DNA of 35,255 nt from IMG/VR virus record IMGVR_UViG_3300030118_002796, positions 1-35,255 of that record. One strand, written 5' to 3'. A program made the translations under genes and the position numbers. This DNA comes from a virus. This document shows positions 10,274 to 14,042 of this stretch, piece after piece (position 1 is the first letter of the stretch; every line of letters starts with the position of its first letter). The notes under the pieces are model-generated. The model searched no databases. It was not told the origin of the DNA and was given only the letters and a program-made list of their open reading frames with translations.

Positions 10274-10698
10274 TGGGCGCTATAAGTCTTGAAATTGCAG
10301 AAGTTCGCAACGCAGTATCTCTAAATGCTGAAAACACATTATTTGATTGTGAGATTAATCATCCAACTTATGGTTGGATACCGTATACACTTAATCCTGA
10401 TGATGAAGACAATCACGTCAACAACGATGATTTAAGGACATTAATAGGTTCCAACTTCACGGCGTATACTGCTCCGACACAAGAAGAGTTGGATGCACAA
10501 GCTGCTGCCTTAGTTCGTGCGGAACGTGATAATAAATTAGTTACAGAGGTTGATCCGATAGTATCAAATCCATTGCGTTGGGCTGATCTTTCAACTGAAA
10601 AACAAAATGAGTGGTCTACATATAGAACAGCTTTATTAAATGTTCCTCAACAATCTGGCTTTCCTCATAATGTGGTTTGGCCTACGAAGCCTGATTAA
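10273..10698 (+). CDS. Tail fibre assembly chaperone-like protein, 141 aa
   Basis: Begins [15 protein letters not shown]; contains an acidic middle with NPDDEDNHVNND, a helical AALVRAERDNKLV...DPIVSNPLRWADLS segment and ends VWPTKPD. The arrangement 'RAxRdxxLxxxDpxvsnplRW...yR.aLlnvpqqxgfP..vvWP' is typical of phage tail assembly chaperones placed after fibre genes. I chose the ATG in the TAATG overlap, 8 nt after AAGGA, rather than an upstream TTG. Role: folding or attaching the preceding fibre. Confidence 0.8.
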   Translation: MGAISLEIAEVRNAVSLNAENTLFDCEINHPTYGWIPYTLNPDDEDNHVNNDDLRTLIGSNFTAYTAPTQEELDAQAAALVRAERDNKLVTEVDPIVSNPLRWADLSTEKQNEWSTYRTALLNVPQQSGFPHNVVWPTKPD

Positions 10699-11441
10699 TG
10701 TTAGGCTTTTCTCCATTAGCATCTGCCCCTCTAGCGGCTGTAGGTGAAACAGGAGAGAGTTTTTCTCTATCTGTGGATGCAGGGTCTTTTGCCACAACAG
10801 GCCAAGCCGTTAATTTTCAAAAAGCTTTACTTTTAGATGCACAAGCAGGGCTAATTACACTTAGTGTACATGGCGCAGCAAAAATAATAACTGAATTTGT
10901 GCCTGACGGACAATTTGTTGTAACTGGCAATGATGTTTCTCTTATTATTTCTCTTGCTGGACCAGCCGCACATGGAACCTTTACCCTAACTGGTCAAAAT
11001 GTAAGTTTATTAAAAAATATTACTTTTGACGGATTAACTACTGGTAGTTTTACTTTAACTGGTCAACCAATAACTTTTGATTTTAGTATAGCAGCGGTCA
11101 ATGGCTCTTTTGTTTTTACTGGTCAAGAAATTACAGAAGATATTTCTGACAAAGTAAGCGCTGGAACTTTTACAGTCACCTTTAATGATGCTGTTCTAGA
11201 ACGAGCAAGGGTAATATCAGCGGATCTTGGGCAATTTACCTATCAAGGTCATTCTGTTGCGTTTAAAGGTTTTTTTGATGTTTCTGATTTGCCAGAAAAA
11301 ATATATACAGAGCAAATTGTTGCTTCCGAAATATACACTGAGCAAGTCGTTGCATTATCAATTTTTACTGAACAAACCATTCCAGTAGAAAATTGGACTG
11401 ACGTTAATACCGAGAGTGAAACATGGACGGATGCAGCATAA
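10698..11441 (+). CDS. Repetitive beta-rich structural protein, 247 aa
   Basis: Starts MLGFSPLASAPLA, a leader I know from marine phage structural proteins. From about residue 25 to 205 it repeats a beta motif with the core G-x-F-x-x-T-G-Q-x-V about every 20-30 residues (for example GTFTLTGQNVSL, GSFTLTGQPITF, GSFVFTGQEITE). The C-terminus has three near-10-residue repeats (IYTEQIVASE, IYTEQVVALS, IFTEQTIPVE). Probably a tail fibre or virion surface protein. TAATG overlap with the chaperone gene. Confidence 0.7.
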   Translation: MLGFSPLASAPLAAVGETGESFSLSVDAGSFATTGQAVNFQKALLLDAQAGLITLSVHGAAKIITEFVPDGQFVVTGNDVSLIISLAGPAAHGTFTLTGQNVSLLKNITFDGLTTGSFTLTGQPITFDFSIAAVNGSFVFTGQEITEDISDKVSAGTFTVTFNDAVLERARVISADLGQFTYQGHSVAFKGFFDVSDLPEKIYTEQIVASEIYTEQVVALSIFTEQTIPVENWTDVNTESETWTDAA

Positions 11442-12212: not shown

Positions 12213-14042
12213 ATGCCATTAGTACCATTAAATATACCATCTGGGTTTTATCGCAACGGAACAGAATACGAGCAAAGCAACCGATGGCGTGACGGTAGCC
12301 TTGTAAGATGGCGTGATGGTTCTTTGCGTCCTGTCGGCGGATGGCAACAACGTAAGGCAGGTTTTTGCACAAACCCAGTTAGAGGTACACACGCTTGGGA
12401 GGCTGAAGGTGGCACAGCTTATTTTGCTGGTGGTTCACATAGCGAATTAAAAATTATGACTGGTGCTGGAATTGCTACAGATATAACTATAGCTGGTTTA
12501 GCTACTGGTAGAGAAGATGCAGCATTAAATTTAGGGTATAGCGGTGGATTTTATGGAACTGGTTATTATGGAACAACTAGACCTTCTACTGGTACATATT
12601 CTGAAGCAACAAGCTGGAGTTTAGATAATTTTGGTGAAGATTTAGTTGCTTGTCACTTTGATGATGGTCGTATTTTGATTTGGGATACTTCTGTTGCGCC
12701 AGCATCCGCGTCTGTTTTAACCAATGCGCCACCAAACAATCTTGGTATTATTGTTACCGAAGAAAGATTTATTTTTGCGCTAGGTGCAGACGGCGATCCT
12801 AGACAAGTTAAATGGTGTGATAAAGAAGCTAATACCACTTGGACGGCTGCGGCAACAAATGAAGCTGGAGATATAATACTTCAAACAAGCGGTCAAATTA
12901 TGCAAGGCATTAGAACCAGAGGCCAGACGCTTATTATTACAGACACAGACGCACATAGCGCAAAATATATTGGACCACCTTATGTTTACGGATTTGACAG
13001 AGTTGGCACTTCTTGTGGCGCTGTTTCAAGAATGAGTGCAGTAGACACTGACATGGGTGCTTTTTGGATGGGGCAAAAAGGCTTCTTTATGTTTGATGGT
13101 AACTCAGTGCGTGAAATTCCATGTCAAGTGCATGACTATGTTTTTGATGATCTTAATGTAAATCAACAGTCAAAAATTTGGGCGTTTAGTAATACTGAAT
13201 TTTCTGAAATTTGGTGGTTTTATCCTTCATCTTCAAGCACAGAAATTGATCGTTATGTAGCTTATGATTTGTTAGAAAATCATTGGCTTATAGGAAATCT
13301 TAGTAGAACAAGCGGAGTACAAAGGGGTGTATTTAGAAATCCTATTTTGTGTGGCGAAAATGTTCAGACAATTACTTATAACGTAACTGTAGCTGATGAT
13401 AGTGGGAATAAATATTATTTATCAACCTATTCAGGATCAGCGCCAACAATTTCTTTAATTAAGGGAAATACTTATATTTTTGATCAATCTGATAGTTCTA
13501 ATGACGGTCATCCATTACAATTTTCTACTACATCTAATGGTACTCATGGTGGTGGAGCAGCATACACAACTGGGGTGACAGTAGTAGGAACGGCGGGTCA
13601 ATCTGGTAGTTACGTTCAAATAGTTACTTCAGATAGTACACCGTCAACGCTTTATTATTATTGCACAAATCATAGTAATATGGGTGGCACAGCAAATGTT
13701 GTTGAGCCAGTTACAGTTTATAATCACGAACAAGGTTTAAATTATGATAGTGGTTCTGTTTTTTGCGAGACAGGCCCCATATCTATTGGTAATGGAGATC
13801 AAGTTACAAAAGTAACCGAAGTTATACCTGATGAGCTAACACAAGGGGATGTTGATTTAAAATTTAAAACAAGATTTCATCCAAATGGCTCTGAAACAAC
13901 TCATGGCGCATTTAATCCAAGCAATCCAACGTCAGTCAGATTTACTGGTCGGCAAGTAAGAATGAGGGTTGAAGGAGATCAAGCTGCAAAATGGCGTGTT
14001 GGAACAATGCGATTAGAGACAAAAGCTGGGGGGCGTAGATAG
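12213..14042 (+). CDS. gp10-like tail/DNA stabilisation protein with inserted cupredoxin-like domain
   Basis: 609 aa. Residues 1-380 and 500-609 match the packaged-DNA stabilisation/tail hub type of marine podoviruses (opening PLNIPSGFYRNGTEYEQSNRW, then VRWRDGSLRPVGGWQ; closing GNGDQVTKVTEVIPDE). Between them, about residues 385-498, is a separate beta domain with H433 (GHPLQF) and C484-x2-H487-x2-M490 (YYYCTNHSNMGG), the ligand spacing of amicyanin-type blue copper proteins. The insert interrupts the host fold between GVFRNPILCG and VYNHEQGLN. Copper binding is inferred from ligands only. AAGGTGAG precedes ATG; the stop overlaps the next GTG. Confidence 0.82.
   Translation: MPLVPLNIPSGFYRNGTEYEQSNRWRDGSLVRWRDGSLRPVGGWQQRKAGFCTNPVRGTHAWEAEGGTAYFAGGSHSELKIMTGAGIATDITIAGLATGREDAALNLGYSGGFYGTGYYGTTRPSTGTYSEATSWSLDNFGEDLVACHFDDGRILIWDTSVAPASASVLTNAPPNNLGIIVTEERFIFALGADGDPRQVKWCDKEANTTWTAAATNEAGDIILQTSGQIMQGIRTRGQTLIITDTDAHSAKYIGPPYVYGFDRVGTSCGAVSRMSAVDTDMGAFWMGQKGFFMFDGNSVREIPCQVHDYVFDDLNVNQQSKIWAFSNTEFSEIWWFYPSSSSTEIDRYVAYDLLENHWLIGNLSRTSGVQRGVFRNPILCGENVQTITYNVTVADDSGNKYYLSTYSGSAPTISLIKGNTYIFDQSDSSNDGHPLQFSTTSNGTHGGGAAYTTGVTVVGTAGQSGSYVQIVTSDSTPSTLYYYCTNHSNMGGTANVVEPVTVYNHEQGLNYDSGSVFCETGPISIGNGDQVTKVTEVIPDELTQGDVDLKFKTRFHPNGSETTHGAFNPSNPTSVRFTGRQVRMRVEGDQAAKWRVGTMRLETKAGGRR

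Follow-up and report, generated by a model that had tools for sequence, protein, structure and literature searches.

The window analyzed here, the whole 35,255-base stretch of IMG/VR record IMGVR_UViG_3300030118_002796, has the gene order of a short-tailed phage and encodes a terminase, structural genes, a portal, a scaffold, a major capsid protein, an endolysin, and replication genes; an anti-restriction protein (phrog_7245, E 1.5e-67) lies on the minus strand at 1631-2533. The ORF at 12213-14042, on the plus strand like every feature described within it below, is a real gene that sits within the virion gene block. Its 609-aa product has an N-terminal part that falls into the virion structural family PHROG 3287 (phrog_3287, E 1.7e-81), and its cultured relatives are annotated as "phage stabilization protein", the name of P22 gp10. 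AlphaFold2 supplied with a 110-row alignment modeled the protein with a mean pLDDT of 77.5; a single-sequence model (pLDDT 32) was set aside. The best Foldseek and VIA matches to the alignment-based model were the tail-nozzle beta-propellers of Pa223, VP1, SU10, and P22 gp10, with VIA Z values of 24-29 against nozzle chains (28.9 for Pa223). The protein is thus a tail nozzle/hub protein of the P22 gp10/T7 gp12 type, a tail beta-propeller adjoining structural genes, and it has in common with the Pa223, VP1, SU10, and P22 nozzles a propeller with a platform. P22 gp10, however, lacks an inserted domain such as the one found here. These matches, together with the insert-less relatives described next, bear out the view of the initial annotation that a gp10-like tail protein has its normal fold interrupted.

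The boundaries of the insert were drawn from an alignment of 80 IMG/VR relatives of the 609-aa protein, which places it at residues ~383-503 (13359-13721). The relatives L001-L034 carry it, whereas L035-L039 and L067, which are 73-81% identical, lack exactly that stretch and have a short GHNxDxD linker instead (...GHNSDS-DVYSHET...). Since relatives this similar are missing precisely that block, the insert is a discrete insertion, in agreement with the earlier proposal of a separate beta domain at residues ~385-498. Within it, a cupredoxin-like core was delimited at residues 387-498 (13371-13706) using a domain HMM, hhalign against a cupredoxin profile, and pLDDT. A tree of the protein built without the insert columns implies four switches between presence and absence of the insert, three of which well-supported branches make unavoidable, so that the insert has been gained or lost at least three times among close relatives. 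In a tree of the domain itself, the nozzle inserts form nearly one group, with support of 97 for a set of 47 rows that includes few outsiders, a grouping compatible with one acquisition and later losses or exchange. The insert appears to be under purifying selection, with a median dN/dS of 0.15 compared to 0.08 in the rest of the protein, although these values are rough because synonymous distances are near saturation. A separate observation concerns the 247-aa protein encoded upstream at 10698-11441, which contains repeated GxFxxTGQxVxF motifs: related genes occur mostly alongside insert-bearing relatives, and weakly also in the insert-less L038 and L067.

The insert had been described as a blue-copper-like domain with H433 and a C484-x2-H487-x2-M490 loop as type 1 copper ligands, and the translated ORF places these residues at exactly those numbers (H433 at 13509-13511; the loop at 13662-13682). 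Amicyanin of Paracoccus denitrificans has the same ligand order and loop length in C92-x2-H95-x2-M98, which we verified against the 1aac sequence. The claim of "exactly the amicyanin spacing" therefore stands for the C-terminal ligand loop but not for the distance from the first His to the Cys, which amounts to 51 residues in the insert as against 39 in amicyanin. Pseudoazurin and plastocyanin have the fold class and ligand types of the insert in common with it; their Cys-His-Met loop is C-x2-H-x4-M, longer than the C-x2-H-x2-M of the insert. The insert also differs from amicyanin in lying inside a virion protein, in having an extra conserved FSTTxxGTH loop, and in having neither a signal peptide nor a methylamine dehydrogenase partner. 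Thus, while it possesses the C-x2-H-x2-M loop typical of the amicyanin family, it is not a secreted electron carrier encoded beside methylamine dehydrogenase genes, being encoded within a phage tail gene among virion genes.

Profile comparisons support a relationship to cupredoxins. The 609-aa protein of the window has no Pfam match of its own, so the link to Copper-bind (PF00127) runs via its relatives: this family matches 20 of 58 diverse members of the domain family, with L195 (25.3 bits) and L197 (24.8 bits) exceeding the curated cut-off of 21.2, and the PF00127 ligand arrangement, His...Cys-x-x-His-x(2-4)-Met, is found in register in the domain family. When the phage family was aligned by hhalign with an amicyanin-type cupredoxin profile (from which L213 and the family members L211 and L214 were left out), the P-value was 1.1e-5 and the probability 82%, compared to 1% for a reversed decoy, and H433, C484, H487, and M490 fell on amicyanin H53, C92, H95, and M98, respectively. 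This profile replaced amicyanin as a single sequence, which had yielded a wrong, short alignment. An iterated search seeded with amicyanin reached phage family members in its second round (E 5e-6), and a canonical-cupredoxin profile gave weak matches to phage ORFs (best E 0.006). Against the PDB, phmmer with the insert returned chance matches to ribosomal L31 and a weak nitrite-reductase match (E 0.85), while the A3 family profile matched antibodies by chance and, weakly, pseudoazurin 3tu6 across the ligand loop. At the sequence level, the similarity to cupredoxins is accordingly remote but consistent.

The structural model agrees in layout. Block mean pLDDT was 78-97 over residues 390-500, where nine short strands are predicted, mostly with high pLDDT; the cupredoxin fold is a Greek-key beta sandwich with 7-8 strands. 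H433 precedes a strand at 435-438 immediately, C484 ends the next-to-last strand (479-484), and the loop that leads from there to the last strand (492-497) contains H487 and M490. Cupredoxins arrange their His, Cys, His, and Met ligands on strands and loops in this way, and the strands and ligand loops of the modeled insert fall at cupredoxin positions, with a placement like that in amicyanin. Foldseek and VIA searches with the whole model gave propeller matches alone among the best 50 listed; since the propeller fills the list, they are uninformative on the insert. Taken together, the profile alignment, the Copper-bind scores of the family, the conserved ligand set, and the predicted strand and loop pattern support the blue-copper-like assignment, and we class the insert, by sequence, as a cupredoxin-type domain that is plastocyanin/amicyanin-like and related to PF00127.

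Conservation of the ligands among homologous inserts had been set beforehand as one of two tests on which the proposal could fail. Each of the four predicted ligands is kept in 160 of 161 domain copies, a set that includes some duplicates and the window itself and that came mostly from searches with ligand-free patterns, the remaining copies deriving from a whole-protein search in which one pattern included the CxxHxxM loop. A ligand-blind search, seeded solely on the segment preceding the first His, recovered 80 loci, of which 79 were long enough to judge; the complete H + CxxHxxM set is present in 76 of these 79, while of the other three, one differs in a longer spacing between Cys and His and two have lost Cys and His jointly. 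Among 58 diverse copies with a mean column identity of 49%, just seven columns are invariant (H, P, F, C, H, M, and G), all four ligands being among them. This last result and the ligand-blind count indicate that the motif did not arise by chance, and the proposal passed this test.

A fifth His, H445 (13545-13547), lies in the FSTTxxGTH loop and is conserved in the subfamily of the window (159/159 where aligned). Cultured phages keep the ligand set down to ~30% identity but not this loop, and H445 is missing in Melnitz, Bellamy, Mosig, P-SSM2, Syn1, and gp9-type members and has no counterpart in canonical cupredoxins. Its absence from distant subfamilies rules it out as a residue that completes the site in all members. 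One copy (L174, 704-1015) has C-x2-H-x2-Q, with Gln replacing the axial Met; Gln is the axial residue of stellacyanin. In Prochlorococcus phage Syn1 (L203), ORF 3167 contains degenerate extra cupredoxin-like copies at residues 781-862 and 899-950 from which Cys, His, and Met have been lost together. A second copy among the 161 (L175 copy 2) has lost three ligands. Decay of a second copy within a protein thus removes the ligands jointly; single copies retain the full set of four at about 30-60% identity. Because the ligands are retained in 160/161 copies and in 76/79 ligand-blind loci and disappear jointly in decaying second copies, a conserved metal site in the domain is likely, and it is probably a type 1 copper site.

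The domain is not confined to nozzles. The family occurs at hundreds of marine phage loci, in tail fibers, baseplate-connector proteins, and other structural proteins, and we found it in 141 phage records, nearly all from marine cyanophages, pelagiphages, and Methylophilales phages, with carriers annotated as tail fiber, virion structural protein, or baseplate-wedge tail-fiber connector. This matches the earlier statement that similar CxxHxxM domains exist in other marine phage structural proteins. Cultured phages sharing the domain include S-TIM5, Syn1, P-SSM2, S-RIM2 and S-H25 (connector), Baldr, HTVC028P, Mosig, and Melnitz. We regard the domain as a mobile module that several marine phage lineages have attached to tail fibers, baseplate connectors, and nozzles. 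Copies were also seen in bacterial sequences: a Pelagibacteraceae genome (L172, 2708-4465) has a T7-type tail-fiber gene with a C-terminal cupredoxin-like domain, whose source is likely an integrated or co-sequenced pelagiphage, and two Bacteroidetes sequences (L166 and L173) encode giant adhesin-like proteins of >2700 aa with one domain copy each, combined in L166 with DUF285, FG-GAP, and Ig-like repeats in a scan of that protein.

We propose that the tail-nozzle beta-propeller received the insert in the loop that leads into its closing strand and that H433, C484, H487, and M490 very probably hold one metal ion, which we infer to be copper, most likely in a type 1 site. Solved tail-nozzle relatives are hexamers (PMC9509320), so about six insert domains would ring the tail. 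In SU10, the short tail fibers dock on a part that extends from blade 1 close to the closing strand, and Ig-like domains, but no cupredoxin, lie between blades 2 and 3 (PMC9509320). VIA pairs model residues 42-507 with SU10 46-884, which by these ranges would put our insert at about the position of the dock. A role in docking the neighboring tail fiber is nevertheless not supported, since the N-terminal anchor of the fiber is the same in relatives with and without the insert, which is therefore not needed for fiber docking; phages without the insert are evidently viable. The best-fitting role, and the one we favor, is that of an exposed accessory module rigidified by metal, presumably on the virion surface, that would contribute to host contact and adhesion in a manner comparable to Ig-like decoration domains. 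In the phiCrAss001 muzzle protein, too, a tail propeller bears additional beta-sandwich domains, but the text consulted on it and on Ig-like virion decoration domains reports no metal ligand set. As a whole, the reading of a cupredoxin-type insert with a predicted type 1 copper site that acts as an exposed host-contact module seems to us reasonably probable.

Other explanations place less weight on the metal or give it another purpose. The ligands are nearly invariant, beyond the residues that maintain the fold, which argues against a metal-free fold kept merely for stability. That a cupredoxin fold has been retained by descent and is metal-free in the virion is nonetheless suggested by the ligand-less copies (Syn1 copies 2 and 3, L175 copy 2, L278, and L283), which indicate that such a fold is viable; the rarity of these copies, with the joint loss and single-copy retention of ligands noted above, makes this account improbable. 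A metal serving solely for folding or stability, in a small spacer or decoration domain that the metal holds together and that has no ligand of its own, would accommodate the modular placement of the domain in many proteins and the way it comes and goes while the phage lineage persists. The nozzle proteins of SU10 (PMC9509320) and crAss001 also bear Ig-like domains of structural role. However, Ig-like domains could act as spacers without scarce copper, and conservation at the ligand residues exceeds that at most core positions, so we regard this explanation as rather unlikely, if still a serious contender.

More active uses of the site can also be envisaged. Canonical cupredoxins are electron carriers, and a complete type 1 ligand set under selection is unnecessary for a purely structural domain; both points would suit a module whose copper exchanges electrons with, or docks on, redox proteins of the host periplasm or outer membrane, and thereby senses the host or triggers DNA release. 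Before ejection, however, virions meet the cell surface rather than soluble periplasmic partners, the occurrence of the domain in very different virion proteins and hosts speaks against one dedicated redox partner, and no partner was found; we consider such a function distinctly unlikely. Alternatively, metal displayed on the tail could be bait that exploits host metal-uptake receptors, a role that the "Ferrojan horse" hypothesis proposes for iron. The carriers in culture come almost exclusively from the sea, where metals are scarce, and HxH iron sites have been proposed in phage tail fibers (T4 gp37 and alterophage R22Y), which are likewise metal sites in phage tails but consist of octahedral iron at a trimer axis, in contrast with the single-domain Cys/His/Met site of the insert (PMC11705849). 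A type 1 site buries its copper and holds it tightly, receptor evidence is lacking, and the iron hypothesis is itself unproven, leaving bait as a very slim prospect next to the accessory host-contact module that we favor.

As far as can be told, the cupredoxin fold is known but its virion setting is new. Known cupredoxins, among them the blue copper proteins that work in respiration and photosynthesis, serve as electron carriers and as oxidase domains, and a widespread cupredoxin family of virion domains would constitute a new use of the fold. Searches of open-licence papers turned up none that describes a cupredoxin domain in a virion, which argues weakly for novelty. The plastocyanin petE that phages encode is a distinct protein with a metabolic role (PMC2984593). 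Because hundreds of ocean phages share the domain with its ligands almost always intact, copper may be present in many virus particles of the ocean. Since the carriers infect bacteria that dominate the ocean (Synechococcus, Prochlorococcus, Pelagibacter, and Methylophilales), the domain could have wide consequences for phage biology and perhaps also for metal cycling. A wider scenario, in which a mobile type 1 copper domain is common to the tails of several unrelated marine phage lineages, the virion copper aids host contact or infection, and virions form a copper pool in the surface ocean, is conceivable but on balance doubtful. The claim that virions carry stoichiometric copper is concrete and cheaply testable, and cultured carrier phages exist, so the copper question does not depend on an uncultured contig.
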